Positions 1,736 through 27,043 of a DNA stretch of 39,296 nt are shown here, one piece after another. The notes beneath the pieces are model-generated. The model did not search any database. It saw only the letters and a list, made by a program, of their open reading frames with translations, and was not told the DNA's origin. The position numbers and the translations under genes are program-made. Position 1 is the stretch's first letter. Every line of letters starts with the position of its first letter. Source of the DNA: Bacteroidota bacterium (GTDB taxonomy: Bacteria; Bacteroidota; Bacteroidia; Bacteroidales; VadinHA17); the NCBI GenBank assembly GCA_030618105.1, contig JAUXED010000012.1, forward strand, positions 1 to 39,296, written 5' to 3'.

Positions 1736-1743
1736 TACCTTTG
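1736..1743 (+). promoter_or_regulatory. -7 promoter element of the RiPP-like operon
   Basis: TACCTTTG matches the TAnnTTTG consensus and lies 19 bases before the ATG at 1763, giving a leader of about 13 bases. No -33 TTG is visible at the usual distance; that region is the simple repeat just upstream. Confidence 0.45.
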
Positions 1744-1762
1744 AAAAAACAAATGAAATATA

Positions 1763-2050
1763 ATGATTGATTTGAACTCTGTCGTTAAACCATCTCCAGG
1801 TATTGTTCCAAGAAAAACGGGGGATGAATATGTCCTGGTGCCTGTCAGTAATAACATTGCAGATATGGATAGTGTCTATACACTAAACGAAACAGGTGCC
1901 TTTATATGGGAAAGACTTGATGGCAAATCAAGTCTTGCAGAAATTATAAACTGCATGCAAAGTGAATTTGATGTGGATGCCGAAACAGCAAAAAATGATC
2001 TCCTTGCTTTTGTTACTGAAATGAAAAAATTCCTTATTGTTACCGGATGA
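1763..2050 (+). CDS. PqqD-family peptide recognition protein (RRE)
   Basis: This 95-residue protein has the PqqD fold signature: VPRKTGDEYVLVPVSNN, SVYTLNETGAFIWERLDGKSSLAEI, then a helical half with DVDAETAKNDLLAFVTEM. Proteins of this family are RiPP recognition elements: a winged helix-turn-helix binds the leader of a precursor peptide and presents it to the modifying enzymes. It is the first gene of a five-gene operon and its stop overlaps the next ATG (ATGA). The presumed client is the peptide encoded at 6662-6820, whose leader carries YKKPEI. In lasso systems the equivalent B1 protein binds a YxxPxL leader motif. The family is clear; the client assignment is inference. Confidence 0.88.
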   Translation: MIDLNSVVKPSPGIVPRKTGDEYVLVPVSNNIADMDSVYTLNETGAFIWERLDGKSSLAEIINCMQSEFDVDAETAKNDLLAFVTEMKKFLIVTG

Positions 2051-2994
2051 AGAGTTTTACCCTTAATATTGCAGACTATAATATCCGGTTTGTATCGACC
2101 GGTCCTGAAACTGACCTTTTCATAAAAAAAAAGTATAGCCACTTTTATTCATGCAGCGGGAATGCTGATATTACAGTTCGTGTACATTCCGGTATTCTTA
2201 CACCTGAAAAAAAAGCTGTCAGGGTGTTTCATGCCCCGTATATTAAAGAGACTGAAAATATAAAGGTAAAAATCAATGATGAGTTCTGGACTGTCTATAA
2301 ATACAATGACGATATATTAATTAAGACTATCCTGCCATTGGGGAAAAAAAACAGGAAAGCCTGCCTGAGAATGAATGCCGGGGCAGATGAGTGGGATCTC
2401 TATATCAGCGGTGCAGATAAAAAAAGAGATCCGCTGGAGTATCCTCTTGACGGTCTGCTGCTCTATTATCTCACTGTAAGGTCGGGCGATATCTTTATTC
2501 ATGGTTCCGGGGTAAGTATAAACAACAGGGGATACCTTTTTGCCGGTGTATCGGGGAAAGGCAAAACCACTATTGCCCGGCTGTGGGATGAGGCAGGTGC
2601 CAGGGTGATACATGACGACAGACTTATTATCAGAAATATAAACGACCGTTTCGTTATGTATAACACACCGGTATATAATAACGAAACACCGCGGTCATCA
2701 CCTGTTGACAAGATATTCCTTATCGATCATGGCACTGCTAACACTATCGTCCCGACAGGAAAAAGTGAAGCCCTTTCACTTGTTATGGCAAACTGTATTC
2801 AGCATTTGTGGAATCCTTCAATAATAGAATTGCTGACCGAAGCACTTGATAAACTAACTTCTGAAACAGATGTCTGCCGCCTGTTTTTCAAACCGGATAG
2901 AAGCGTTATTTCATATATACTGGAAGAATGGGATAGAGGGGATAGAGGGGATAGAGGGAGTAGAGGGAATAGAAGGAAGAAGAATAGTGGATAA
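2047..2994 (+). CDS. HPr kinase-like protein of a RiPP locus
   Basis: This 315-residue protein resembles HPr kinase/phosphorylase-like kinases. A P-loop GVSGKGKTT is at residues 167-175, followed by GARVIHDDRLIIR with a paired Asp at 190-191 in the place of the HPrK catalytic Asp. A HGSGV motif is at 152-156 just before the P-loop. In some lasso peptide clusters such kinases phosphorylate the peptide on Ser, so the likely substrate here is the local precursor rather than HPr. It starts in an ATGA overlap with the PqqD-like gene. The last 20 residues (DRGDRGDRGSRG and onward) are encoded by the GGGATAGAG minisatellite, which also supplies the stop codon; that tail is unlikely to be functional. 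Confidence 0.78.
   Translation: MKSFTLNIADYNIRFVSTGPETDLFIKKKYSHFYSCSGNADITVRVHSGILTPEKKAVRVFHAPYIKETENIKVKINDEFWTVYKYNDDILIKTILPLGKKNRKACLRMNAGADEWDLYISGADKKRDPLEYPLDGLLLYYLTVRSGDIFIHGSGVSINNRGYLFAGVSGKGKTTIARLWDEAGARVIHDDRLIIRNINDRFVMYNTPVYNNETPRSSPVDKIFLIDHGTANTIVPTGKSEALSLVMANCIQHLWNPSIIELLTEALDKLTSETDVCRLFFKPDRSVISYILEEWDRGDRGDRGSRGNRRKKNSG
2921..2990 (+). repeat. GGGATAGAG minisatellite at the kinase 3' end
   Basis: About five 9-bp units (GGGATAGAG, GGGAGTAGAG, GGGAATAGA) follow GGAAGAATG. The strand has at least five G-runs of three or four with 5- to 6-base loops, a canonical intramolecular G-quadruplex pattern. The array is read through in frame by the kinase gene. In another frame it would read IEGIEGIEG. 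Confidence 0.9.
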
Positions 2995-3019
2995 GGGTTT
3001 TATACCAAAACAGGAACAG

Positions 3020-3478
3020 ATGAAAAATAACAGATCAGATTCTATTTTTCTTAAAGATGTAAGTCTGAGTCTTCTGTCAGAGGGTAAGTCGTTACGTATC
3101 AAAGCTGGTGGTTACAGTATGTTTCCTGCAATACATCCCGGTGATATTGTTATTATCGCTCCTGTCAATAACCGGTCAAACCTAATTCCGGGTGATATAA
3201 TAGTTTTTAAGAGAGATTCCGATTTTGTGTTACACCGGCTGACAGATATCAGGCATCATAAAAATAACATTCTCTTTATCACACGAGGCGACAGTAGTAT
3301 GAATGAAGATAAACCAATTACGGCAGATAAAATATCCGGCGTAGTTACTGCAATTGAGACAAGACGAGGGAGAATCCGGCCACATCGCCGCAAAATGCAC
3401 TACCGCCGTAACCGTGCCATGGTCAAACTTGTCCAGCTAATGAAAAAACTCTTTAGCGTAATTCGTCTAAATTCGTAA
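3020..3478 (+). CDS. S26 (SipW-type) peptidase-like protein without a membrane anchor
   Basis: This 152-residue protein has signal-peptidase-like motifs: KAGGYSMFPAIHPGD with the presumed nucleophile Ser33, FVLHRLTD with His72 in the place used by SipW-type Ser/His enzymes, and TRGDSSMNED, the usual RGD box. I chose the ATG at 3020 because the longer frame back to 2870 is only minisatellite sequence and kinase overlap. Unlike normal signal peptidases, no transmembrane helix is visible at either end, suggesting a soluble cytoplasmic enzyme. Inside this operon it could remove the leader from the modified peptide before or during export. The C-terminal IRLNS is encoded by an ATTCGT repeat. Confidence 0.8.
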   Translation: MKNNRSDSIFLKDVSLSLLSEGKSLRIKAGGYSMFPAIHPGDIVIIAPVNNRSNLIPGDIIVFKRDSDFVLHRLTDIRHHKNNILFITRGDSSMNEDKPITADKISGVVTAIETRRGRIRPHRRKMHYRRNRAMVKLVQLMKKLFSVIRLNS

Positions 3479-3488
3479 AATTCGTACT
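3455..3488 (+). repeat. ATTCGTCTAAATTCGT repeat
   Basis: GTAATTCGTCTAAATTCG and following ATTCGTA units span the stop of the S26 gene and the upstream region of the ABC transporter. The reverse complement of this sequence occurs at 6463-6500, so the ABC transporter and nucleotidyltransferase genes are framed by an inverted pair. Confidence 0.8.
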
Positions 3489-3497
3489 TTTACATAA

Positions 3498-5300
3498 ATG
3501 AACAATCAATTCCATAACAATAAGCGTATCCTTTTCTTAAAAGCAGTAAAACTCGTATGGGAATGTTCTCCGGGCTGGGCTACAACCAACATCTTTATCT
3601 CCGTTGTACGAAGTATATTTCCGCTAATACTTGTATACCTCATTAAGCAGCTTGTTGATGGTATTACCATGGTAGCAGGGCAGACCGGTGATATAAACAC
3701 CAACCTGATAATATGGTATATTCTTGCTGTTGTAATAACAATATTCCTTGATGAGGCGGCAACGAGTCTGGGCAATCTGGTGCGTAACAAACAATCCTAC
3801 CGCCTTGAGTCGCACATGCATAACCTGCTTCATTCCAAGTCAATACAGCTTGATCTTCAACACTTCGAAAATCCTGAATATTACGATTCACTGGCTCGTG
3901 CAGCACGCGAAGCACCATACAGACCCAACACTATCGTCAATAATCTTATTTCTATTGCCAGGGGACTGTTATCACTTTTGCTGATGGCAGGACTCCTTTT
4001 TTATTTACACTGGGTAATAGTGATAATCCTTCTGGCAGCCAACATACCTGGAATATGGCTTCGTTTGCATTATGCAGGGGTACTGTATAACTTCAAACGT
4101 GAACAGACACCAGCCGCAAGAAAAACAGCATACTTCAAATGGCTGCTAACAGGCGACAGGCCATCAAGAGAATTGCGCCTGTTCGGACTGGGCGATTATT
4201 TTGCTAATCTCTTTAATAAGAATTTCAGGAAACTTAAAGAAGAAGAGATTGGTATTATACGTAAGAGAACATCCATTGAACTTATTACCGGCATATTCAA
4301 AGCTGCAGCATTTCTTTTAGCACTCGGGTATATTGCTAAAGAAACAGTCAGCTCACAAATATCGGTTGGCGATATGGCAATGTACCTCGTTGCCTTCAGA
4401 CAGGGTATGGTCTATATTAAAGATGTCTTTTCATCGCTGGCAGGTCTCTATGAAGATAATCTTTTCATTGGCGATACCTTCGAGTTTCTTAATCTTAAAG
4501 AGCAGATCGTTGCTGTACCTCCTGTTATTAAACCGGGCAGTCTCAGTAACAATATTAAAATAAGCAATCTCTCTTTCTCATATCCGGGTACCGGTGAACC
4601 ACTGCTCAAAAACCTTAATCTTGAGGTCCGGAAGGGCGAAACGATAGCGCTGGTAGGAGCCAATGGTGCAGGTAAGAGTACACTGGTAAGATTGTTATGC
4701 AGATTATATGATCCGGCTGAAGGGAAAATAACTCTTGATGGTAAGAATATCACACACATGGACCCTGCTTCTTACCGCAGATTATTCTCTGTTATCTTTC
4801 AGGATTTTATGCTATATAACCTCAGTGCAGGTGATAATATCAGGATGGGGGATATCTTCACACCTCAAAACAGGGAAAGAATAAAAACGTCGGCATCACA
4901 AACAGGCATTGATGAACTGATAGAGGCACTGCCTAAAGGATATGATACGGTAATCGGCAGACTTTTTGATGACAGTCGTGAACTTAGCTGGGGCGAATGG
5001 CAGAAGATAGCAATGGCACGCGCCCTGTACAGGGATGCTCCTGTACTGATACTCGACGAACCGACAAGCGCCCTCGATGCCTCAACAGAATATGAGCTGT
5101 TTGGCAGGTTCAAAGAAATAACCCGCGACAGGACTTCAATACTTATCAGTCACCGTTTTTCAAACGTCGGTCTGGCCGACAGGATACTGGTGCTCGATAA
5201 AGGAATAATAGCTGAAGAAGGAACGCATGATGAGCTGATGAAAGCCGGCGGTATTTACAATGAGATGTACACTAAGCAAAGCAGCGGATACAAATTATGA
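3498..5300 (+). CDS. ABC exporter, fused permease and ATPase
   Basis: This 600-residue half-transporter has an N-terminal membrane domain of about six helices (residues 1-320) and a C-terminal ATPase. Walker A is GANGAGKST near residue 387, the signature is LSWGEWQKIAMARAL near 496 and Walker B is LILDEPTSALD near 517, with a switch His in ISHRFS. The signature departs from LSGGQ. There is no N-terminal C39 peptidase, so leader removal must be done by another protein, plausibly the S26-like neighbour. Like McjD-type transporters it probably dimerises and exports the finished peptide and may confer immunity. The gene ends in an ATGA overlap with the nucleotidyltransferase gene. Confidence 0.88.
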   Translation: MNNQFHNNKRILFLKAVKLVWECSPGWATTNIFISVVRSIFPLILVYLIKQLVDGITMVAGQTGDINTNLIIWYILAVVITIFLDEAATSLGNLVRNKQSYRLESHMHNLLHSKSIQLDLQHFENPEYYDSLARAAREAPYRPNTIVNNLISIARGLLSLLLMAGLLFYLHWVIVIILLAANIPGIWLRLHYAGVLYNFKREQTPAARKTAYFKWLLTGDRPSRELRLFGLGDYFANLFNKNFRKLKEEEIGIIRKRTSIELITGIFKAAAFLLALGYIAKETVSSQISVGDMAMYLVAFRQGMVYIKDVFSSLAGLYEDNLFIGDTFEFLNLKEQIVAVPPVIKPGSLSNNIKISNLSFSYPGTGEPLLKNLNLEVRKGETIALVGANGAGKSTLVRLLCRLYDPAEGKITLDGKNITHMDPASYRRLFSVIFQDFMLYNLSAGDNIRMGDIFTPQNRERIKTSASQTGIDELIEALPKGYDTVIGRLFDDSRELSWGEWQKIAMARALYRDAPVLILDEPTSALDASTEYELFGRFKEITRDRTSILISHRFSNVGLADRILVLDKGIIAEEGTHDELMKAGGIYNEMYTKQSSGYKL

Positions 5301-6484
5301 GCCTGTATGCCGATATATCACCGGAAGAGCAATTACTGATATCTCTTTGCCGTCTTTCCTTCAGCGAAAAGCAGAAAAAAAATATCCGTACACTTACGAA
5401 GAAGATAACAGATATTGACAAGTTCGCGTATCTGGCTAACGAACATGGCATTATAGCGCTGGTTTACCATAACCTGAAAGAGACGGGTGTCGGGGACCTG
5501 CTGCCTGAAGAGAAAATGGCATCCCTTGCAAACAGCAGGATGAAAAGCCTGGGGCGTAACACATTCCTTTATAAGAATATTGAACAGGTACTGGAGCTTT
5601 TATTTAGGCAGGGAAAAATAAAAACGGTATTGCTTAAAGGAATGGCTCTTGAGTTGTCTGTATATGGCAATAAGGGATTAAGGCAGATGAACGATATTGA
5701 TATTCTTGTACCCCGTGAACAATGCATGGAAGCAAGAAGGATATTGCTGAATAATGGTTTCCAGTCAATCCCGCTTAAGTCGCCGCTCTATAATCTTATA
5801 CTTCCTTACTATGGCAAGCATCTGCCGGAGTTGATCAAAGGAGGTATTTCTGTTGAGATACACCATAAGCTTTTCGATGGAGCAGATCACTCACTTACGG
5901 AAAGAATGATCACCAACAGCACTGAAATAACATTCAATAATAGCAGTGTGCTTATCCCGCCGGTGCGTGAGTTTTTTCTTTACTTAGTGAAGCATCTTGA
6001 CAAGCATGAAAAAAACGGCGAATCGCAGTTACGCTTATATACCGACCTCTTTTGTATGGTTGATAAATATGAAAAAGAGCTTTTAGATACGGCGCTATAT
6101 AAAGAAGCAGAAGCAGCCGGACTGGAAAAAGAATTGGCAGCTAAACTTTTTCTTCTGAAGCACTATTGGGAAATTTTTATTCATCCGGCACTGGAAACAT
6201 TAATTAATGAAAAGACCCCGGATAATACCACTCAGTTATTCAAAACTTTCTTGTCACAGCCGAAGGGACATCCGGTATTATATAACCGGGCAGACAATTA
6301 CTGCCAGACAATAAAACAGATACAGGGATTACACCGCAGGATGATTTACATACTTGGCGACCTCTTTCCATCACTAAGGTTTATGAAGAAGAGGTACAGT
6401 ACGAGGAGTAAGTTAGGGGCTTTATTGTACTATCCGCATCGGTTGGGGAAACTAATGTATTTAATACGAATTACACGAATTTAG
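5297..6484 (+). CDS. nucleotidyltransferase family protein (NTP_transf_5 type)
   Basis: This 395-residue protein resembles the family of nucleotidyltransferases found in lasso and other RiPP clusters. Key motifs are TVLLKGMALELSVYG and LRQMNDIDILVPREQ, where the two Asp of DID (near residues 133-135) would bind metal, and VEIHHKLFDG near 186. Members are thought to transfer a nucleotide to a peptide or protein; the acceptor here is unknown, but the precursor is an obvious candidate. The ATG overlaps the transporter stop. The C-terminal residues RITRI and the stop lie in the reverse ATTCGT repeat, so the 3' end of the gene has been reshaped by that repeat. No further cluster gene follows except the peptide. 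Confidence 0.82.
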   Translation: MSLYADISPEEQLLISLCRLSFSEKQKKNIRTLTKKITDIDKFAYLANEHGIIALVYHNLKETGVGDLLPEEKMASLANSRMKSLGRNTFLYKNIEQVLELLFRQGKIKTVLLKGMALELSVYGNKGLRQMNDIDILVPREQCMEARRILLNNGFQSIPLKSPLYNLILPYYGKHLPELIKGGISVEIHHKLFDGADHSLTERMITNSTEITFNNSSVLIPPVREFFLYLVKHLDKHEKNGESQLRLYTDLFCMVDKYEKELLDTALYKEAEAAGLEKELAAKLFLLKHYWEIFIHPALETLINEKTPDNTTQLFKTFLSQPKGHPVLYNRADNYCQTIKQIQGLHRRMIYILGDLFPSLRFMKKRYSTRSKLGALLYYPHRLGKLMYLIRITRI

Positions 6485-6500
6485 ACGAATTTCACGAACG
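6463..6500 (-). repeat. ATTCGTCTAAATTCGT repeat, inverted copy
   Basis: The minus strand reads GAAATTCGTCTAAATTCGT and so repeats the sequence at 3455-3488 in the opposite orientation. It supplies the stop codon of the nucleotidyltransferase gene. Confidence 0.8.
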
Positions 6501-6601
6501 GTTAATTCAAAGCATACACAAGTCTTTTATACATCAATGCAACCCATTACCCGCTTTTTTAGTCTTATCTATAACAAATAATCTTAAAATTGAGAATGAT
6601 T

Positions 6602-6633
6602 TTTGGTATATTTATTAAATTATTGTAGTTTTG
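6602..6633 (+). promoter_or_regulatory. promoter of the precursor peptide gene
   Basis: TTTG at 6602-6605, a 20-base spacer and TAGTTTTG at 6626-6633 match the Bacteroidota primary sigma factor consensus (TTTG, 19-21 bases, TAnnTTTG). The expected transcript start is near 6640, about 22 bases before the ATG. The peptide can therefore be expressed separately from, and more strongly than, the enzyme operon. Confidence 0.75.
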
Positions 6634-6661
6634 AAAGTGGTAAAGTCAGCTCATTAACAAC

Positions 6662-6820
6662 ATGAAGAAGATTTACAAAAAGCCTGAAATAAAAAAGATC
6701 GATCTGGATAATTCGATCTCACTTGTTATGCAGACCACCACCCCTGTCAACCCCACTCCCCGTGGTGGTGGTAAAGGAAGTGATGATTCACCGTTTGATG
6801 ATGATAAGCCATTTGGGTAA
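6662..6820 (+). CDS. candidate RiPP precursor peptide, 52 aa
   Basis: This small gene encodes 52 residues. The leader-like part (1-24) begins MKKIYKKPEIKKIDLD and contains YKKPEI at 5-10, which matches the YxxPxL/I motif that lasso RRE proteins bind. The C-terminal part has three Thr (25-27), a Pro-rich stretch, RGGGKG at 34-39, an Asp pair and DDSPFDDDKPFG at the end. It has no Cys, so thioether or thiazole-Cys chemistry is excluded. Possible acceptors for the local kinase or nucleotidyltransferase are Thr25-27, Thr32, Ser40 and Ser43. It has its own strong promoter and lies 177 bases after the nucleotidyltransferase. The role as precursor is inferred from size, leader motif and position; I cannot place the cleavage site. 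Confidence 0.78.
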   Translation: MKKIYKKPEIKKIDLDNSISLVMQTTTPVNPTPRGGGKGSDDSPFDDDKPFG

Positions 6821-8566: not shown

Positions 8567-11026
8567 CTACCCTGATCTTTTACCGAACAGGAATCTCCTG
8601 ATCTTTGAATATAGATTCTTCGAAGTATCTTCCTCGTCACCATAATATCCCTGTCCATAACCATAGCCCTGTCCATAACCATAACCGTACCCATACCCGT
8701 ACCCATAACCAAAATAATAACCATATCCGTATCCATAGTAGCTGGGGATCTTAACATCGTTTACCAGGAGACTTAAGTTCTTAACATTTTTTTTGTTATA
8801 TAGTTCATCAATATATTGAACAACATTTTTAGAGGAATATTTCTGACGGACGATAAAAATATTGGTATCGGTGTACTGTGTCAAAAGTATGGCATCGGTA
8901 ACAATTGCAACAGGCGGAGTATCCAGGATCACATAATCGAATTCTTTTCTAGCTTTATTAAAGAATTCTTTCATTGACGGTTTTTCGAGAAGTTCCGCAG
9001 GGTTGGGAGGTATGGGGCCGGAGGATGCAATGTAAAGATTTTCAATATCAGTAGTCCGGATAACATCTTCATAACTTGTTTCATTAATCAGGTAAGTGCT
9101 CAAACCTTCATCATTATTCACATTAAAGTCTTTATGTATCTTGGGTTTCCTCATGTCTAATCCCACGAGCAGGGTTTTTTTGCCGGACATGGCAATAATA
9201 ACAGAAAGGTTTGTAGCCACAAAGGTTTTTCCTTCACCGCTTATGGTTGACGAAATTGAAATTACATTCCTTTCTTTTTCGGGTAACAGATACTGAATAC
9301 TGGTTCGAATGGATCTGAATGATTCGGCTATGGATGACTTTGGATTTTGTATTACCGGGAGGTCAGATTCACCGTGATTATGCCCAATAGATCCGAGAAT
9401 AGAAACATTTGTATTGTTTTCAATATCAGACCTGTCAATAATCTTGTTATTGAAATAATCGAATAGCAGGATGATAAATAGAGGAATTGCTAATCCAATA
9501 ACCAGTGCTATCATATAGTTCATTGAATTCTTTGGTGAGACTTTTGTCGCATTCTCAACGCGGGCTATATCAAGGATCTTATTATTAGGAATGTTTGATG
9601 CCTGAGCAATTCCTGATTCTGCCCTTTTCTCCAGCAGATATGTGTAAATATCATTATTCAGATTGAATTTTCGTTCAATTCCAATGAGTTCTCTCTCAGT
9701 AGCAGGTAATTTCCTTACCTCTTTAAGGACTTCCTCTATTCTTATGTCCATATCAACCATCGCGATATTAGTGGAATGGATCAGGTTTTCTAAATTTTCC
9801 AGGAGTCCTTCTATGGTATTTTTCAACTTTCGGGTTGTAATATCTATTAAAGGGTTATTTTCTTTCGCGGCAAAAAGCAACTCTGCTTTCTTAGAATAGA
9901 GGTCAGATAATTGTGTTAGAAGTGACATTAATACAGGATCGTTTATACCCACGACCGAAGGGGCTATAATATCTTTGAAGTCCGACTTACTTTTAATATA
10001 ATCAAGAAGATAATTATAGTATTTAAGTTTAATATCAAGCTGATTTCTTTCTTGTTGAAATGATTCAAGCTTTTCAAGAACCGCAGACCCCTCTCTGCTA
10101 ATGTCAAGGATCTTATGGGATTGCCTGAATTGCATTAAATTGGATTCAGCCGATGTGAGCGAATCGGTAATTTCCATTAACAGATCGTCAATAAACTTAA
10201 TAGTATTAACAGCAGTCAGGTTCTTTTCCTCCAGATCAGATCTGATAAATACTTCCATAAGCTTATTTAGATAGTCGACTTCCTGCCGGGCAACATACCC
10301 CTGGGTAGAAAGAGTCAGTATTGAACTTTCTTTATCGGTTACCGCAACACTAAGTTTGCTTCTATACCTGCTGGTGAGTGAATTAAGACTATTGAATATG
10401 AAATAGTACTTTCCGGATGACAGGTTTTCAGTGGAAAAATTCATTTTATCCCTTAAACCGACCGTAAAGTTAAAATCTTCGTTGATAAAGGGTTCGCCGA
10501 ATTTCATTCGTTTTTTAATATTGGATTCTTCATCAATCTCCAGTTCATATTCCATTTCTGAAATAATATTTATATAAACCGGGTATCCGTATCGTTGAGC
10601 GACTGATGTATCGGGCTTTACAATTATCGGTGATTGGATATAAAGTTTGGATTCTGCAATTCCCCTGCGTCCTACATTAACAAAGGTTATCTTGAAATCA
10701 TCCAGTTCCTTCATAACTTTTTGGGCAAGGGAATATGATTTCAGAATACCAATTTCGTTCTGTATATTCTTGCGGTTGCTGAACATATCAACACTTTCAA
10801 TGATTCTTTCAGCACCTATGAGTCCACCCCCTTTTTCTTCATCTCTGACAATAACCGTAGCATTGACACTATATATTGGTTCAGAATACCTGTTTATCAG
10901 ATATGCACTTGTAATGGTGAGGAATAGCGATAATGCAAACCAATACCAGTTAGAAAGTATCTTGAAAAGAAATTTCTTAATATCAATATTTTCTTCCTGG
11001 TAGATATGGTCGGTGCCGTATTCCAT
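8567..11026 (-). CDS. Wzc-like polysaccharide co-polymerase / tyrosine autokinase
   Basis: This 819-residue protein combines a Wzz-type chain-length domain (two membrane helices, near residues 33-53 and 505-525, around a coiled-coil periplasmic part) with a cytoplasmic BY-kinase domain. Walker A is STISGEGKTF near 591, the A' motif is LLVGLDMRKPKIH with Gly where the first Asp is usual, and Walker B is YVILDTPPV near 699. It ends in a Tyr- and Gly-rich tail (about residues 760-795) of repeated GYGYGQ units instead of the usual short Tyr cluster. Autophosphorylation on such tyrosines controls polymer length and export. It follows wza by 6 bases, so the two form an operon. No glycosyltransferase cluster is adjacent. 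Confidence 0.9.
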   Translation of the reverse strand: MEYGTDHIYQEENIDIKKFLFKILSNWYWFALSLFLTITSAYLINRYSEPIYSVNATVIVRDEEKGGGLIGAERIIESVDMFSNRKNIQNEIGILKSYSLAQKVMKELDDFKITFVNVGRRGIAESKLYIQSPIIVKPDTSVAQRYGYPVYINIISEMEYELEIDEESNIKKRMKFGEPFINEDFNFTVGLRDKMNFSTENLSSGKYYFIFNSLNSLTSRYRSKLSVAVTDKESSILTLSTQGYVARQEVDYLNKLMEVFIRSDLEEKNLTAVNTIKFIDDLLMEITDSLTSAESNLMQFRQSHKILDISREGSAVLEKLESFQQERNQLDIKLKYYNYLLDYIKSKSDFKDIIAPSVVGINDPVLMSLLTQLSDLYSKKAELLFAAKENNPLIDITTRKLKNTIEGLLENLENLIHSTNIAMVDMDIRIEEVLKEVRKLPATERELIGIERKFNLNNDIYTYLLEKRAESGIAQASNIPNNKILDIARVENATKVSPKNSMNYMIALVIGLAIPLFIILLFDYFNNKIIDRSDIENNTNVSILGSIGHNHGESDLPVIQNPKSSIAESFRSIRTSIQYLLPEKERNVISISSTISGEGKTFVATNLSVIIAMSGKKTLLVGLDMRKPKIHKDFNVNNDEGLSTYLINETSYEDVIRTTDIENLYIASSGPIPPNPAELLEKPSMKEFFNKARKEFDYVILDTPPVAIVTDAILLTQYTDTNIFIVRQKYSSKNVVQYIDELYNKKNVKNLSLLVNDVKIPSYYGYGYGYYFGYGYGYGYGYGYGQGYGYGQGYYGDEEDTSKNLYSKIRRFLFGKRSG
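8641..8748 (-). repeat. in-frame tandem repeat encoding the (GY)n tail of the Wzc-like kinase
   Basis: Six-base units of the type GGTTATGGGTATGG run through this stretch on the coding strand and encode GYGYGYGYGY with GQ interruptions. Such arrays expand and contract by slippage without breaking the frame, as each 6-bp unit encodes one Gly-Tyr pair. Confidence 0.85.
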
Positions 11027-11032
11027 TCTATG

Positions 11033-11803
11033 CTATAAATTAATAAAATTTAAAATCAATACAAGAGTGCTTATGGTTGAGAGAAATATAGAAAGTGTGG
11101 GGGCATTGATCCTAAACATTTTGGTGCTGATAGGTTCCACGTAAACGATGTCATTTGGAAGCAGGAAAAATCCTTCAGAAGAGAGAACCTTACTACTTGT
11201 AAGATCGATCCTGAAAGTTTCAGTTCCTGATTTTGTTGGTCTGATAATCAGAACTTTTTTCCTGTTGCCATAATCAGTGATATCTCCTGCCATTGCAATT
11301 GCTTCAAGCACTGTTAACTGGTTATTATAATTCCTGTACATACCGGGCCCATGAACTTCACCAAGAACCGAAAACTTAAAACTTATAAGTTTAACAACAA
11401 CAGATGAGTTCTTAAGGATATCATCCGCATGTGACTGAATTATGTTTTTAGCTTCTTCAACTGTTTTGTATAATACATTTACATTACCGATAATAGGTAA
11501 ATCAATATTACCGGAGTCGTTTACGCTATAACCATTGATAAAAAGGCTGGTTTCATTCTGGAAAAGGTTTTGCTGATACCTTCCGGATGTTAAATTAAAA
11601 ATTTCGTTTGCTTCCTGATTCATACTATATATTCTAATATAAAGTATGTCCTGCTTTTGTATCTTATAATCGATTGATTGTTTAAAAAAAATATTGTCTT
11701 CAGTCCCGGCATCCACATCCTGGAGATATAATAATTCCTTTTGGCTTGTACATGAGCTAAACAGAAGGGATAAAGCAATAATGACTTGAAAAAACCTTTT
11801 CAT
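11033..11803 (-). CDS. Wza-like polysaccharide export outer-membrane lipoprotein
   Basis: This 256-residue protein starts MKRFFQVIIALSLLFSSC, a lipoprotein signal with Cys18 as lipidation site. A longer frame reaches 11890, but that would put the start upstream of the promoter's expected transcript start and lose the signal peptide, so I use 11803. The body has a poly_export domain (YKIQKQDILYIRIYSMNQEA) and SLBB-type beta-grasp repeats (VLGEVHGPGMYRNYNNQLTV). The C-terminus is a hydrophobic helix (FLSTISTLVLILNFI). It should form the outer-membrane channel working with the Wzc-like protein encoded next. The promoter at 11860-11891 drives both. Confidence 0.9.
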   Translation of the reverse strand: MKRFFQVIIALSLLFSSCTSQKELLYLQDVDAGTEDNIFFKQSIDYKIQKQDILYIRIYSMNQEANEIFNLTSGRYQQNLFQNETSLFINGYSVNDSGNIDLPIIGNVNVLYKTVEEAKNIIQSHADDILKNSSVVVKLISFKFSVLGEVHGPGMYRNYNNQLTVLEAIAMAGDITDYGNRKKVLIIRPTKSGTETFRIDLTSSKVLSSEGFFLLPNDIVYVEPISTKMFRINAPTLSIFLSTISTLVLILNFINL

Positions 11804-11859
11804 TTTTAAGAGAAATTTAAAACGTCTAAAATAACTAAAATTCTTAATACACTTTACCA

Positions 11860-11891
11860 CAAACATAACCATAATCTCTATTTGTAGCAAA
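11860..11891 (-). promoter_or_regulatory. promoter of the wza-wzc operon
   Basis: On the minus strand, TTTG (11891-11888), a 20-base spacer and TATGTTTG (11867-11860) match the Bacteroidota consensus exactly. The transcript start would be near 11853, leaving a 50-base leader before the ATG at 11803. Confidence 0.75.
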
Positions 11892-17472: not shown

Positions 17473-19404
17473 CTATTCCTCCATTTGCCGGTAAACTTTT
17501 TTAATAAATATTTGTTCAGGATATCCCATATTTATTATGTCCGTTCTATGTTGTTCAGCTTCTTCAAGAGTTCTTAGTCTGCCTGTTGTATAACGATAAA
17601 ACAGGTCTTTTCCGAAAAGAACTTTCACATCATCAAGTCCTATAAAAAAAGAAATATCAACAGGGTTATAAAGTGCCATAAGTTGAACGGTAAAGTATAA
17701 AATCTCTCTGTTATCTTCATCAGTTTCATTAACATCTTTTGTTTCAACATCTGTAATGAGTAATGAAGAGTCAATTGATTCGATTACAGTTACCTTTGAG
17801 AAGTCTATGTTAACCGGTACAGGTTTCTCTTTAACAAACGTACTATCAGGTTCCAGTCTGACATCAATAGTTATTATAGATTCCGGACTATCCTCATCAA
17901 GGGAAAGTTCTTTTGTTTGTTTGAAATATCCTATCCCTTCATAAAAAAGTTCATAATCTCCAGTACCGGTAATAAAACTGTATAGTCCGGTAGTTTTATT
18001 CGGGTAACTTACATCAATAGTATCGTTGCTGATGGTATCAATAAGACTGATTGGGAAATCCTCATTAAACAAAATTGCAGGATCCGGTACACTTATTATT
18101 CCTCTAATCTCAAAAACAAGTTCAATTTTCTTCGAGAAGAGATTTATTTTGAATATTTCTTTCTCTTTATAACCTGTAAGCATTGAATAATAAGCAATTG
18201 TTCCATTTCCAATGGGCTGGAAAAATAGATCATCATCGGTGCTATTAATTGGATAACCTATATTTTCAGGTTTTTGCCAGGTGTTGCTTTTCTTTTTTGC
18301 CTTAAATATATCGTATCCTCCTATGGTGTAATGACCTTCGGAGCTGAAAAACAGGATAGAATCATTATTGGTTAGGAAAGGAGTGCCTTCATTGAAAGGC
18401 GTATTTATTGAAGTCCCGAGATTATTAGCAGGACCCCATGTTCCATCAGATTGTAATTCAGACAGATAAATGTCTGTTCCTCCTTCTCCTGCATCCCGGT
18501 TACTGGTAAAGAATAATGTATTACCATCTTTACTGATACTTGCATGTGACTCGTAATATTTTGTATTGATATTATTGTTAAGCTTCATTATCTTGCTCCA
18601 GGTACCATCGGAATAATTACTTACATAAATATTTCCAACAAAGTCATCCGCTTTGTAGATGAATAATTGTGTGCCATCATAATTAAGAGAGGAAGATGAG
18701 ATATCTCTTTGATTTGAGAGCTGACTGGTTATTTCGGTTGGAGGGCTCCATTTACCACTAACTTTTTGTGACATATAAATAGAATTTTCTTCTCCCATTT
18801 CACATGTATAAACCATAGTATTCCCATCTCCTGAAACAGCCGGTCTGTGATTAATAGCAACAATATTTATTTTTTCCCCGAGGGTTTTCTTAGTGAAATC
18901 CAGTGGGGTTTCCATTAATTTTTTTGCATTTTTACATGCCATAATCTCCTGATCAACAAAATCGGAATTAACCATTCTACCCTCACCTGATAACAGATCC
19001 TTGAACTTTGCATATGTTAAGATGGCTTTATCAAGGTTGTTATTGATCCGGAATGCATTACCAAGTGAAAAATATGCATCCAATGGTGCCCTTTTTTCAT
19101 TGAACCGTGTTACTTTGGCTCCATATTCAGAATTTGTTATGGCACTTTGAAGGAAGGGAATGGCTTTTGTCTTTTCATGAGGTATATGTAGATAACAATT
19201 ACCTATCTTATATTGAATATTGGCATTTTCAGGCATCATCTGGTTTAAAACCATATATATCTCATTAGCCTTTTCATATTCACCGTATAAATAGTGAGAT
19301 TCGGCTACAATAAAGAAATCTCTCATCTGGGACTTGCTCTGGGCAAGTGACACAGACATGCTAAGCCAGACGAAAATAGCTAATAAGTAAAATATTTTTC
19401 TCAT
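17473..19404 (-). CDS. PorE-like TPR/PD40 protein 1, SPOR C-terminus
   Basis: This 643-residue secreted protein has a signal peptide (residues 1-22, ending SLAQ), TPR-like helices with KANEIYMVLNQMMPENAN, a PD40 beta-propeller (blades of SKDGNTLFFTSNRDAGEGGTD type), a beta-sandwich near 440-540 and a SPOR-like domain from about 563 (YFTVQLMALYNPVD, FYRYTTGRLRTLEEAEQ). The order TPR, propeller, sandwich recalls PorE of the type IX secretion system, whose C-terminus is OmpA-like instead. SPOR domains bind denuded peptidoglycan, so this copy may localise to septa. Cys70 and Cys157 match positions conserved in four sister proteins. It is the last gene of the array. Confidence 0.85.
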   Translation of the reverse strand: MRKIFYLLAIFVWLSMSVSLAQSKSQMRDFFIVAESHYLYGEYEKANEIYMVLNQMMPENANIQYKIGNCYLHIPHEKTKAIPFLQSAITNSEYGAKVTRFNEKRAPLDAYFSLGNAFRINNNLDKAILTYAKFKDLLSGEGRMVNSDFVDQEIMACKNAKKLMETPLDFTKKTLGEKINIVAINHRPAVSGDGNTMVYTCEMGEENSIYMSQKVSGKWSPPTEITSQLSNQRDISSSSLNYDGTQLFIYKADDFVGNIYVSNYSDGTWSKIMKLNNNINTKYYESHASISKDGNTLFFTSNRDAGEGGTDIYLSELQSDGTWGPANNLGTSINTPFNEGTPFLTNNDSILFFSSEGHYTIGGYDIFKAKKKSNTWQKPENIGYPINSTDDDLFFQPIGNGTIAYYSMLTGYKEKEIFKINLFSKKIELVFEIRGIISVPDPAILFNEDFPISLIDTISNDTIDVSYPNKTTGLYSFITGTGDYELFYEGIGYFKQTKELSLDEDSPESIITIDVRLEPDSTFVKEKPVPVNIDFSKVTVIESIDSSLLITDVETKDVNETDEDNREILYFTVQLMALYNPVDISFFIGLDDVKVLFGKDLFYRYTTGRLRTLEEAEQHRTDIINMGYPEQIFIKKVYRQMEE

Positions 19405-19492
19405 ACCTGAATCATCTAAATATAAACAAATATATTGTTTAAAAACAATTATTTTATAATGGTTTCTCTAAACTTTGAAATACTTTTAAGGA

Positions 19493-20965
19493 CTATTCTT
19501 CATATTTAAAGTAATAATTTCCTGATTCGGTTACATAAGTGAACTTACCTTCTGCTTTGTTAAAGTATATTGTAGCGATAACTTTGTTTGTTAATTTATC
19601 TATAATTCTGATATTGAAATTTTTATCTATTATTAAAATTTTGCCATTCATGTCAACAGGTCCGGAAAACTCACTATCGGTTTTATCTTCATCAGGTATG
19701 ATTTTTATCCTGTATATATCTTTATTACCAAGCCCCTCACGGCTGATTTTTGATATATAACCAATGTATCCATTTCCTACAGGATTGTAAAAAATATTAT
19801 CACTTGTTGTATTTACCGGATATCCGATGTTAGTCGGATTGTCCCATTTACCGTTTTCTTTCAATCCCGAGTAAAATATGTCGAAGCCTCCCATGTTATA
19901 ATGTCCCTCCGAACTAAAATAGAGTATCTTGCCATCGGCAGAAAGGAAAGGAGTTTCTTCATTATAAATGGTATTTATTTTGGAACCAAGGTTTTCAGCG
20001 GGTCCCCATTGCCCGTTTTTCATTTTCTTTGAACTATATATATCCAGTTCCCCCTCGCCCCCTTTTTTGTTACTGGTGAAATACAGAGTATACCCATCAG
20101 AAGAAACAGTGGCATGAGTTTCAGCATGGTTTGAATTTATATTTTCACCCAGCAGTTCCATATTTGTCCACCATCCGTCTTTAAACTTACTTATATATAT
20201 ATCCCGGTTGTTATTACGGCCTTTTACCAGGAACAACTCTTTCCCATCATAAGAAAGACATGTAGGGACAGCATCACCATCCGAACCAACCTGTGGTGTA
20301 ATATTTTCAGGATCTGTCCATTGTCCGTTAATTTTTTTCGATTGATATATAGCGTTATAAAACTTTAAATCTGTCATGAATACAATAGTATTTTCGTCCT
20401 GAGATATGACAGGATTATAATTGGCTGAAGAATTATTTATTGGTTCTCCAAGGTTTGTTTCTTTAATCTTGATAGGAATGTCCTGAATGATCTTTGCTTT
20501 TCCGCATGAACTTATTTCATTATTAACCAGGTTCAGGTTATAATTATCTTCAAAATCAGGCATATCTCTAAAGGTGTTATATGCCTCCAGGGCTTTATCC
20601 AGTTGATTATTAATTCTATAAGCTTTGCCCAGATAGAAATGAGAGTGCCATGGAGCTTGCTTTTCCTTTATCGATTTACTTTTATATTTCAGGGTGGTGT
20701 TTTGTGAAGCTTCTTCAAAAAAGGGAATTCCCTTGTATTCTTCACCCGTTATATTCAGGTAACATAATCCTATTTTATATTTTATATTATCATTCATAAG
20801 ATTTGTGCCCTCAAGCTGAAGAAAATTGAATAAGGCTTCAGGATAGTCTTCAATCTGGAAAAAGAAATCACCATCATCAAGAAACTCTTCCGGTGTATTT
20901 TCTATCTGTGAATATCCGGGGAAGCAGATGACAGCTATTAGCAATAGAAAAACCAAACGTTTCAT
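19493..20965 (-). CDS. PorE-like TPR/PD40 protein 2, no C-terminal anchor
   Basis: This 490-residue protein has a signal peptide (MKRLVFLLLIAVICFPGYSQ), the TPR region, and a PD40 propeller with blades of SSDGYTLYFTSNKKGGEGELD type. It ends within the following beta-sandwich (YVTESGNYYFKYEE), so the wall-binding module present in its sisters is missing. The 88 bases downstream show no remnant of one. Cys68 and Cys154 are kept. It may be a soluble periplasmic partner of the anchored copies or a decaying one; the open frame and intact propeller favour a functional protein. It is transcribed with the rest of the array. Confidence 0.82.
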   Translation of the reverse strand: MKRLVFLLLIAVICFPGYSQIENTPEEFLDDGDFFFQIEDYPEALFNFLQLEGTNLMNDNIKYKIGLCYLNITGEEYKGIPFFEEASQNTTLKYKSKSIKEKQAPWHSHFYLGKAYRINNQLDKALEAYNTFRDMPDFEDNYNLNLVNNEISSCGKAKIIQDIPIKIKETNLGEPINNSSANYNPVISQDENTIVFMTDLKFYNAIYQSKKINGQWTDPENITPQVGSDGDAVPTCLSYDGKELFLVKGRNNNRDIYISKFKDGWWTNMELLGENINSNHAETHATVSSDGYTLYFTSNKKGGEGELDIYSSKKMKNGQWGPAENLGSKINTIYNEETPFLSADGKILYFSSEGHYNMGGFDIFYSGLKENGKWDNPTNIGYPVNTTSDNIFYNPVGNGYIGYISKISREGLGNKDIYRIKIIPDEDKTDSEFSGPVDMNGKILIIDKNFNIRIIDKLTNKVIATIYFNKAEGKFTYVTESGNYYFKYEE

Positions 20966-21126
20966 TGGTTTATTATTTATGATTACCTTCTATAATGAAT
21001 ATTCGATAAAATTTTATTCAACTATTTGTCTTTTTTTATTCAATTATATCAAAATTAAGAAATTGATTGGAAAAACAGAATAAAGCAAGAATTATTTGAG
21101 AAAAAAACAGTCCACAATCATCTTAT

Positions 21127-22992
21127 CTACTTTTTATTTCCTCCTTCTATCTTCTTTAACAGTTCCCTGGTAACTTTTCTAATAAATATATCATCAGCAT
21201 ATCCCATTTTTCGTATTTCCTTTCTGAGTTGTTTAGCTTCTTTATAAGTTTTTAGTATCCCTGTAGTATAACGATAAAACTGGTCTTTTCCGAAAGCAAC
21301 TTTCACATCATCAATTCCTGCAAAAAAGGAAACATCAACAGGGTTATAAAGTGCCATGAGTTGCACGGTATAGTATAGAAACTCTCTGTCATCTTTATCT
21401 GTCTTGTAAGTTTCTTCTTTCTTTACGGGTTTAAGTTCGGTCTTTATATTTATTTCGTCTATGGAATAATCAGAGGGTATTATAAATTCAGTTTTACCAT
21501 CAGAGTATCCATTGACAGAAGCAATTACTTCGTATTTACCGGGTTTTGAGATGGAGTAAACAAATTTACCGGAGGGTAGTTTAGCTTTAGGAGATGCAAT
21601 TTTTCTGGAAGTTGCAGACTCCAGAATATCAATATTTATTTCCCCCTTAGTTTCAGCGGTAAATCCGGAGGCAATAACCACACCTTTGATTTTTACCTTC
21701 CTTGGATTATTGTCAGAATAGATATTCAGATAGTAAATATCTTTGCCACCGTAACTATCCTCATTGCCAAATATTGAATAATAGGCACCAGTCCCGTTAT
21801 TGTGAGGCGAAAAGAAGATGTCATCATCAGTGGAATTAATAGGGTACCCGATATTTACAGGTTTTGTCCAATTATCTGAAACAGATTTTTCAGTATAGAA
21901 GATATCAAATCCGCCTAAGTTTTCATGACCCTGAGAGCTAAAATAGAGCTTTTTACCATCACGGGTAAGAGAGGGGCAATCTTCACTGTAACAAGTATTT
22001 ACAACAGGCCCTAAATTAACCGCGTTACCCCAGTCACCAGTTAACGGATTTTTTTTAGACTTGTATATATCAAGACCTCCGTAACCTTTAATCCTGCTGC
22101 TTGAAAAATATAATGTGGAACCATCCGGGGATTCAGATGCATATGATTCCCAGTATTTCGTATTTATGTTCATATTTAATTTTACAGCATTAGTCCAGAC
22201 ATTATCTTTGAAATAACTTACATATATATCACTGTTAAGATTGTCGTTTTTTGTCATATAAAGTGTTTGCCCGTTAGCCGATAGTGAGGAGATATAAAGA
22301 TCTCCATCTGATTTGATCTGAGGGGTCAGATTAACAGGCATAGTCCATTTTCCATCAATCTTTTTACTAAGCATAATTGCATCATAAAACTTTAAACCGG
22401 TCATGAATACAATTGTATTACCATCTTGCGAAATTCCAGGGTAATAATTGTTATAGGCATCATTGATATTTTGCCCAAGGTTATATGAATCGAAGTGAGT
22501 TTTATTCTGCTTTAGTTTTTTTGCATTCTTGCATGACTCAATTTGCTTCTTAACAAAATTAATGTTAAGAGTATCAGCGGGGTGGTGAAAAGTGAGATGT
22601 TTTTCGTACATCTGTTTTGCTTTAATTATCTCGTTATTAATTTGGTATGCATTAGCAAGATAAAAATATGCATCATAAGGGGCTTTTTTTTCATTGAAAT
22701 CCCCTTCTTTATATCTGTTTGTGAGATTATTAATAGCTTTTTCGAAATAAGGGATGGCTTTATCTTTTCCCCCCTGAATATTAAGATAACACAATCCTGC
22801 CCTAAAATTTAGATTAGCATTATCAGGGTATTTATCGATAAGCTGGAGGTAAAAAGGTAAAGCATCCGGGAATTCTTTATGTAATACAAAATATTCACCA
22901 TCAAGGAACATCTCCTTTTCCTCGTCTTTTTGTGCAAATAGTGTTGGAATAGAAATAAAAGAAAAAAGCAGAATAATCAGCAACTTGTTCAT
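21127..22992 (-). CDS. PorE-like TPR/PD40 protein 3, SPOR C-terminus, hybrid gene
   Basis: This 621-residue protein has signal peptide MNKLLIILLFSFISIPTLFA, TPRs, PD40 propeller, a CarboxypepD_reg-like domain (KIKGVVIASGFTAETKGEIN) and a SPOR-like domain (EFLYYTVQLMALYNPVD, FYRYTTGILKTYKEAKQ). From the start to about residue 530 it is nearly identical to protein 5; its last 80 residues instead match protein 1. The junction reads KKEETYKTDKDDREF: EETYK is left over from the start of an OmpA domain as in protein 5. I use the ATG at 22992 because the one at 23016 lies before the expected transcript start (TAAATTTG at 23019-23026) and because the signal peptide begins here. Cys68 and Cys154 are kept. 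Confidence 0.85.
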   Translation of the reverse strand: MNKLLIILLFSFISIPTLFAQKDEEKEMFLDGEYFVLHKEFPDALPFYLQLIDKYPDNANLNFRAGLCYLNIQGGKDKAIPYFEKAINNLTNRYKEGDFNEKKAPYDAYFYLANAYQINNEIIKAKQMYEKHLTFHHPADTLNINFVKKQIESCKNAKKLKQNKTHFDSYNLGQNINDAYNNYYPGISQDGNTIVFMTGLKFYDAIMLSKKIDGKWTMPVNLTPQIKSDGDLYISSLSANGQTLYMTKNDNLNSDIYVSYFKDNVWTNAVKLNMNINTKYWESYASESPDGSTLYFSSSRIKGYGGLDIYKSKKNPLTGDWGNAVNLGPVVNTCYSEDCPSLTRDGKKLYFSSQGHENLGGFDIFYTEKSVSDNWTKPVNIGYPINSTDDDIFFSPHNNGTGAYYSIFGNEDSYGGKDIYYLNIYSDNNPRKVKIKGVVIASGFTAETKGEINIDILESATSRKIASPKAKLPSGKFVYSISKPGKYEVIASVNGYSDGKTEFIIPSDYSIDEINIKTELKPVKKEETYKTDKDDREFLYYTVQLMALYNPVDVSFFAGIDDVKVAFGKDQFYRYTTGILKTYKEAKQLRKEIRKMGYADDIFIRKVTRELLKKIEGGNKK

Positions 22993-23084
22993 AGATACAC
23001 TTATTAACCAAATCATAACAAATTTAACAATTTATGAATGCATTAAAAATATATTTTTTCTACCTTTTTTATAAAACTCGTGTG

Positions 23085-23132
23085 GACTGTGGACTGCCGA
23101 CTGTGGACTGCCGACTGTAGATTGTGGACTGA
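23085..23132. repeat. GGACTGCCGACTGT repeat
   Basis: About five copies of TGTGGACTGCCGAC-like words lie next to the stop of PorE-like protein 4. The same words end repeat copy C at 16792-16809. Confidence 0.8.
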
Positions 23133-24881: not shown

Positions 24882-24934
24882 TTTTTATTTAGAAATTAAT
24901 AAGATAAAGCTTCTGCAATAAATCAAAGTATCTA

Positions 24935-26929: not shown

Positions 26930-26953
26930 GATACACATGTTAACCAATTATAA

Positions 26954-26983
26954 CAAAATTAATAATTTATGGACGCATTCAAA
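26954..26983 (-). promoter_or_regulatory. promoter upstream of PorE-like protein 5
   Basis: The minus strand has TTTG (26983-26980), an 18-base spacer and TAATTTTG (26961-26954). The spacer is one base shorter than usual. The homologous sequence upstream of protein 3 keeps the -7 element as TAAATTTG but has lost the TTG. Confidence 0.55.
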
Positions 26984-27043
26984 AATTATTTTTCCTACTC
27001 TCTTAATAAATTTCGTTTTATAGAGAATTTGGTAAATTGTGTA

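Follow-up and report, generated by a model that had tools for sequence, protein, structure and literature searches.

Linear polyphosphorylated peptides (LPPs), which belong to the ribosomally synthesized and post-translationally modified peptides (RiPPs), were described in May 2026 for the lppAKBSDN cluster of Paenibacillus alginolyticus, with the product seen by heterologous expression (PMC13381572; statements on LPP here and below refer to the accessible part of that paper). The HprK-like kinase LppK adds up to four phosphates at a sole site, Ser3 of the core, and the SipW-like signal peptidase LppS (triad Ser29-His68-Asp93) cuts after Thr-1 and so removes the leader, in vitro only when LppB, which is the RiPP recognition element (RRE), is present. 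Deletion of lppN changed nothing detectable. In the discussion of that paper LPP is called restricted to Bacillota, the peptidase cluster is predominantly from Bacillota, and LPP clusters are frequently found in capsule loci. Here we describe a locus of five genes (A to E) and one short precursor gene (F) (Table 1) in a Bacteroidota bacterium of the order Bacteroidales. The stretch analysed, called the window, is 39,296 nucleotides of contig JAUXED010000012.1 in assembly GCA_030618105.1 (contig C24 of a 2.39-Mb assembly with 184 contigs, 95% complete). The locus is very likely a Bacteroidota counterpart of the LPP systems, with a peptide that most likely works outside the cell, in many relatives together with a RemA-like surface protein. 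By analogy, it is a variant that would work like LPP; the kind is known in Bacillota, and the Bacteroidota branch and the link to a secreted surface protein are new. With the publication of LPP, the peptide type that a preliminary description of this DNA had proposed is no longer new.

The preliminary description had read the five genes and the small peptide as one unit between unrelated genes, and all six are indeed present, flanked by the genes for ApbE (5') and for a Na+/H+ antiporter (3'); its start of the locus (1736) moves to the first start codon at 1763. Genes A and B overlap by 4 bases, as do D and E. The kinase-like protein B scores 19.4 bits against PF07475 (cut-off 33.3, E 7.9e-4), and its best NCBIfam model is TIGR04355 (HprK_rel_B, E 2.9e-9), also below cut-off. 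Its H152, K173, D190 and D191 are kept in 17, 17, 16 and 17 of the 17 rows of alignment A2, the His-Lys-Asp-Asp set that lasso-tailoring HprK-like kinases require, according to the accessible part of PMC9266682. For the peptidase C, scores are above cut-off for both PF00717 (26.2 bits, cut-off 23.3) and TIGR02228, the archaeal/ER-type (endoplasmic reticulum) signal peptidase I (58.8 bits, cut-off 51.85), and profile A4 of C matches SEC11C at 7.7e-12. Its S33, H72 and D97 are kept in 19, 19 and 18 of the 19 rows of the C alignment, and their spacing (39 and 25) is the same as that of the LppS triad. Taken together with the analogy to LppS, these conserved residues support the earlier proposal that the S26-like enzyme is the leader peptidase. 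The open frame of C begins at 2870, the start homologous to that of its relatives is the ATG at 3020, and the gene ends at 3478. For the exporter D the best NCBIfam model is MsbA, below cut-off, and no C39 peptidase domain is among its domain matches. As for the RRE, profile A3 matches PbaB1 (9x90; 5.8e-9, 38.9 bits), TbiB1 (2.5e-8, 36.9 bits) and LppB (9x8z, as assigned in PMC13381572; 1.6e-6, 31.1 bits), all as profile scores. Among the 20 A3 rows, column 42 is Asn in 15 and column 79 is Asp in 19, and LppB Asn33 and Asp70 align with these two columns, with the residue numbering offset taken from the printed alignment to 9x8z.

The precursor F has no match to any Pfam or NCBIfam family, and we considered whether it could be a chance open reading frame (ORF). 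This was ruled out by its conservation in genus, family and order, since F, 83-90% identical, is kept next to the locus or to a fragment of it in all but one of the six further genomes of the window's genus; the exception (G003, 87% complete) has no match to E, the peptide or the kinase. Genus g11 of the same family has a full-length homologue that is 54-56% identical. Using profile A1 (nine sequences), the peptide was found in 42 of 117 family genomes at E 0.1 (40 at E<1e-8); across the order, at E 1e-3, 26 of 393 genomes have it. Profile A7 (53 sequences) found it in 32 of the 393 order genomes at E<=1e-5, with five of the 37 genomes matched left uncounted for an E above 1e-5. The peptide is thus conserved over many families, as the preliminary description had expected of a true precursor. 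A plasmid collection gave no match to F. All 53 rows of A7 have Pro8 and Asp16, T/S at residue 25 (Y+20) and M/L at residue 23 (-3 relative to the predicted cut), and 52 have Tyr at residue 5. Of these precursors, 51 have Pro in aligned column 28 and 52 in column 31, and 45 have xPF or xPY at most 14 residues from the C-terminus. The second-best Protein Data Bank match of A7 is the lasso leader TfuA co-crystallised with its RRE (weak, E 1.2). Loss of the peptide in genera g8 and g2 was a first impression that we dropped: the profile found the peptide on other contigs there, beside large cargo genes.

Precursor and kinase go together across genomes. With the kinase counted at E<1e-38 (31 of 393 order genomes; the 25 weaker of 56 matches, with E from 7e-29 to 5e-16 and most covering the C-terminal half only, were left uncounted), it is found in 27 of 32 precursor-bearing order genomes as compared to 4 of 361 others (p 1.5e-32). 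In the window's family, 37 of 40 precursor-bearing genomes (E<1e-8) have the kinase. Part-by-part profile searches of all 31 order cassette loci, some of which end at contig ends, place A no more than 6 kb from B in 26 loci, C in 28, D in 20 (not counting one fused D in L278) and the peptide in 16, of which 15 have it directly 5' of B. Five kinase-adjacent peptides come from outside the A7 building set (G193, G206, G277, G307 and contig C8 of G258). The preliminary description had suggested searching for the ordered gene set with its peptide; of the 16 loci with a linked peptide, 14 have the peptide between A (PqqD) and B (HprK), and the place 3' of E (NTP_transf_5) is found only in the window and its genus. 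C and D form a single open frame in five genomes (G047, G419, G333, G468 and G154), and this S26-ABC fusion parallels peptidase-containing exporters, with an S26-type enzyme as the peptidase. B and C are likewise a single open frame in 3/3 examined genomes of genus g11. Precursor genes are found at up to five places per genome, and the kinase gives one match per order genome (at most six candidates were scored per genome); the two family genomes with two kinase matches, G080 and G125, carry adjoining fragments of one gene. In a sample of 395 genomes of the phylum (E 1e-25), the only B matches from outside the order are those in G526 and G616 (E about 1e-63), two genomes of one genus in another class; the other two matches are the window's genome and G440, which is in the order, weak and partial. 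G526 and G616 have A, B and C beside a large protein with a sorting-domain-like end (judged by eye), and neither D nor a recognised precursor was found near them. We also note that about 3.6 kb of other genes lie between B and C in the G013 cassette (L036:3870-7535), which looks like an accessory insertion.

The gene upstream of the precursors is typically a cargo gene of the type IX secretion system (T9SS). Two precursor searches gave 87 distinct places, from which the best-scoring 57 loci besides the window were taken (30 per search); five of the window's genus were excluded, leaving 52, and eight more were dropped (five without an upstream ORF of 120 aa in the locus, two with an opposite-strand neighbour, one with unread bases), leaving 44. 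The upstream neighbour was defined as the gene 5' of the precursor or of the PqqD-precursor pair; ORFs <120 aa were skipped and the longest ORF within 700 bases was favoured, so most PqqD genes were skipped and the tested neighbour of a cassette precursor is the gene before PqqD. In 39 of 44 cases the product of this neighbour has a C-terminal type IX sorting domain (TIGR04183, E 0.01), as compared to 12 of 145 controls (p 2.6e-24); the controls are a random draw from 187 ORFs >=200 aa in loci L110-L149, and some of them adjoin precursors too. The Pfam tail model matched 30 of the 44. Our p-values overstate independence because many precursors come from close relatives (21/44 from the window's family).

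These cargo proteins belong to a particular subclass. A region of about 270 residues before the tail is found in 39 of 45 precursor-linked cargo proteins and 0 of 30 other T9SS picks, and the usual YPNP-like motif in 2 of 45 and 24 of 30, respectively; the picks are the top-scoring sorting-domain matches of six genomes and hence biased to canonical tails, and 3/30 look like a wrong reading frame. In five cargo proteins scanned whole, the pre-tail region gave no Pfam or NCBIfam family above chance-level scores. A profile of seven cargo proteins matches residues 891-1422 of RemA (8gl6_D) with E 6.2e-27; RemA is a gliding adhesin of Flavobacterium johnsoniae (PMC10994853, accessible part). Of the 37 proteins found in the loci with a RemA-like region, 33 are followed on their own strand, at a distance of at most 2.5 kb, by a precursor or PqqD gene, a count that is a description and not a test because the loci were chosen around precursors or B; the HMMER filter missed at least one more such protein, in L122, with a precursor downstream. 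As most tested precursors lie just downstream of a RemA-like type IX cargo gene, the peptide most likely acts extracellularly with that surface protein. Among the matches listed in our literature search, whose scope left out most subscription journals and bioRxiv preprints, there was no link between RiPPs and type IX cargo. The accessible parts of a Bacteroidales RiPP survey (PMC10352776) and of two RRE papers (PMC12710340 and PMC7470986) had no match to HPr, S26, nucleotidyltransferase or, where asked, type IX terms.

Cargo beside precursors reaches 2,705 residues (L122:17-8131, L126:2653-8505, L130:8793-11762). Among the five scanned, Big_5 Ig-like domains (L130) and BNR_assoc_N (L126) are above cut-off, and beta-helix and fn3 domains are below it. 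In genus g8, extra NTP_transf_5 copies (L146:8765-9745 and L149:3502-5323) adjoin a cargo-precursor pair apart from the main cassette, and L149 has an extra copy of the S26 enzyme there too.

From the gene content, conservation, co-occurrence, linkage and catalytic residues observed here, a pathway can be proposed. A would bind the YxxPxI leader of F, B would phosphorylate Ser/Thr of F, C, presented by A, would cut the leader after Thr25, and D would presumably export the linear product. E may attach an additional group to the phosphate; only some of the relatives have it close to the cassette. Several precursor genes scattered over the genome appear, in many relatives, to share a single cassette. 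We infer that leader binding, phosphorylation, cleavage at Thr25 and linear export are the best reading, because the catalytic residues, the RRE residues, the T/S at -1 and the hydrophobic residue at -3 fit LPP. Phosphorylation, T-1 cleavage and RRE dependence of the cleavage were demonstrated by others, for LPP only (PMC13381572), and the same action would be expected in the Bacteroidota branch, on an acceptor residue that is presumably a Ser/Thr of the peptide. The chemistry in the preliminary description, a RiPP without cyclase modified by phosphorylation and/or nucleotidylation, is supported by analogy as regards phosphorylation since the gene set matches LPP enzyme by enzyme; nucleotidylation is unsupported, the lppN deletion having had no detectable effect.

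We also consider a two-part surface system, in which one cytoplasmic cassette matures several short phosphopeptides, every one of them with a RemA-like adhesin gene of its own next to it, and the ABC-exported peptide binds or attaches to the C-terminal region of that adhesin, whose display or function requires it. This is conceivable, and we hold it with more doubt than confidence; if true, LPP-type peptides would have a known role for the first time. In any case, an LPP-like machine is placed in Bacteroidota with a distinct precursor family, and its precursors are tied to RemA-like type IX adhesins. With such an adhesin as a definite partner the function of the phosphopeptides becomes directly testable, and the cargo link would connect the fields of RiPP maturation and type IX secretion.

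Several observations speak against an LPP-like system acting with a RemA-like protein. B reaches no curated kinase-family cut-off, and its AlphaFold2 model (five close sequences) is of low confidence (mean predicted local distance difference test score, pLDDT, of 32). The RRE A is as near to lasso RREs as to LppB. In the leader, the Y-to-T spacing is 20 here and 15 in LPP. At the third core position, taken strictly, 2 of 53 precursors have Ser and 34 have Pro (the alignment column matching it is Pro in 51), and no core Ser/Thr is conserved; every core has at least one Ser/Thr, and 5/53 are without Ser. Five order genomes have a precursor without a strong kinase (G238, G278, G350, G405 and G413) and four a kinase without a precursor (G013, G154, G347 and G428; in G013 the cargo gene hits the contig end at the expected peptide position). 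In the window's family the kinase is missing in 3 of 40 precursor-bearing genomes, and 36 of 73 kinase-bearing genomes are without a precursor match to the narrow profile A1. Only 11 of 31 loci have E at most 6 kb away from B. If the two precursors with an opposite-strand upstream neighbour are taken as misses, the cargo link becomes 39/46. Loci of the window's own genus (g1) are without RemA-like cargo beside the peptide, and in the window's genome, which has 28 sorting-domain matches, the RemA-like part of the cargo profile finds nothing at E 1e-5; here the partner is perhaps another protein, or the link has been lost.

SGGxDS is the ATP-binding signature of lasso cyclases, and none was found in ORFs >=150 aa in the 31 cassette loci, which bears on the possibility that the locus is a lasso pathway whose cyclase and B2 protease were lost or are supplied in trans. 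Such a pathway would account for the accessory set and YxxP leader shared with paeninodin-type clusters (as far as the accessible sources go) and for an RRE that is equally lasso-like. Three Asn_synthase matches in the window's genome do reach the family cut-off (21.1-30.4 bits, cut-off 21) but cover 62-102 of 354 positions, so no whole cyclase is seen; the best genome-wide match to Transglut_core3, the lasso protease, is 13.8 bits (cut-off 26), and a leader protease of a different kind is present. We therefore rejected membership among lasso peptides, and a degraded or split lasso pathway seems very improbable. The absence of lasso protease and cyclase noted in the preliminary description is borne out for the assembled genome apart from the partial Asn_synthase matches and the sub-cut-off Transglut_core3 match, and a whole cyclase linked elsewhere, which it had named as a counter-argument, did not turn up in the 31 loci by the signature or in the window's genome, where the genome-wide search was made. 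It is improbable that the cassette serves the capsule, with the peptide or the enzymes regulating or decorating polysaccharide export. In the window, genes of the Wzc and Wza type follow 1.7 kb downstream, Poly_export or NusG-type genes are near precursors in L146, L148 and L149, and capsule loci often house LPP clusters (PMC13381572); the commonest neighbour elsewhere is nevertheless T9SS cargo.

Exported modified peptides are often bacteriocins, and the patchy spread (a strong kinase match in 31/393 order genomes) would also suit exported antimicrobials that share an operon with RemA-like cargo merely for co-expression. Yet one machine appears to serve several precursors, most of them beside a homologous adhesin region, and the cores are not fast-changing, given their Pro columns and xPF/PY ends; no immunity gene came up, though no dedicated search was made. 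We consider the antimicrobial explanation rather unlikely. To the idea that the T9SS-cargo neighbourhood is a by-product of abundant T9SS genes we give almost no credence: the six genomes examined do have from 25 to at least 150 sorting-domain matches each, but the controls in the neighbour test come from the same loci, and the partner is a special subclass by both its RemA-like region and its lack of the YPNP-like motif (with the biased control noted above). An LPP-like system with a RemA-like partner in many relatives remains our preferred reading.

Table 1. Genes and predicted elements of the locus (window coordinates)
Feature	Position	Strand	Basis
A, PqqD-type RRE, putative leader-binding protein, LppB/B1-like	1763..2050	+	PF05402, 73.8 bits (cut-off 23.4)
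B, HprK-like putative peptide kinase, LppK/PadeK-like	2047..2994	+	TIGR04355 and PF07475, both below cut-off; His-Lys-Asp-Asp
C, S26/archaeal-type signal-peptidase-like putative leader peptidase, LppS-like	3020..3478	+	TIGR02228, PF00717; Ser-His-Asp
D, MsbA-type ABC exporter, LppD-like	3498..5300	+	PF00005 (ABC_tran), PF00664 (ABC_membrane); TIGR02203 MsbA 2e-81, below cut-off
E, NTP_transf_5 nucleotidyltransferase, LppN/PsmN-like	5297..6484	+	PF14907, 160 bits (cut-off 31.2), 1e-46; DxD in NDIDILV
F, precursor peptide, 52 aa, YxxPxI leader	6662..6820	+	profile A1 2.0e-32 and A7 5.6e-20 in its own genome (F is a row of both)
F leader, residues 1-25, predicted cut after Thr25	6662..6736	+	T/S at Y+20, M/L at -3; LppS analogy
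F core, residues 26-52 (predicted), xPF C-terminal motif	6737..6817	+	xPF/PY near the end
Possible Bacteroidota-type promoter of F (TTTG-N20-TAGTTTTG)	6602..6633	+	pattern match, weak

The promoter candidate follows what we take to be the Bacteroidota consensus; the pattern has 5 matches in the window against a mean of 2.4 expected, and 10 of 100 shuffles reached 5. A short tandem run of ATAGAGGG-like units is found on opposite strands at 1420-1460, 5' of the locus, and at 2930-2980, within the 3' end of B, where it gives B a low-complexity tail (GDRGDRGSRGNRR) that no other B protein among the 17 in alignment A2 has. Also near the locus, the stretch 8567-11890 encodes an export protein of the Wza type and a Wzc-type tyrosine kinase whose tail is rich in Gly and Tyr. 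Farther away (17473-29893), five of six successive large genes resemble T9SS PorE and CHU_0125 (TPR/PD40/OmpA kind), far below cut-off; the gene at 19493-20965 was outside that scan.

The HPr-rel-A/SynChlorMet cassettes (TIGR04352/04353 and TIGR04248/04249) have a PqqD and HprK-like pair in common with the locus, and matches to their models are all below cut-off here; we know of no S26 or RemA-like link for them. RemA and RemZ of Flavobacterium johnsoniae are type A T9SS cargo, and the profile of the precursor-side cargo matches RemA over some 530 C-terminal residues; no modified peptide is mentioned in the accessible part of their description (PMC10994853). The paeninodin and pseudomycoidin lasso systems are alike in the RRE, the HprK-like kinase with His-Lys-Asp-Asp, the nucleotidyltransferase and the Y/WxxP leader, and differ in that the locus has an S26-type protease instead of a B2 protease, with no whole macrolactam cyclase found and no conserved C-terminal Ser acceptor (PMC9266682, accessible part). 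Closest is LPP, with which the window shares the RRE, the HprK-like kinase, the archaeal-type signal peptidase, the MsbA-like exporter, the NTP transferase and a YxxP precursor without a cyclase, as well as the spacing of the peptidase triad, T at -1 and capsule genes nearby. The LPP precursor motif YxxPxVLxHQxIxFETxxS is retained here as YxxPx[ILV] and T/S at -1; the HQ of the LPP leader is not in the rows shown. We do not file the locus as a strict LPP member because core position 3 (Ser in only 2/53), the Y-to-T spacing and the conservation of the acceptor differ; the NTP transferase, too, is near the cassette in 11/31 loci only. Unlike LPP as described so far, the systems reported here have a Bacteroidota host, scattered precursor genes, S26-ABC and HprK-S26 fusions, and partner genes for RemA-like T9SS cargo.

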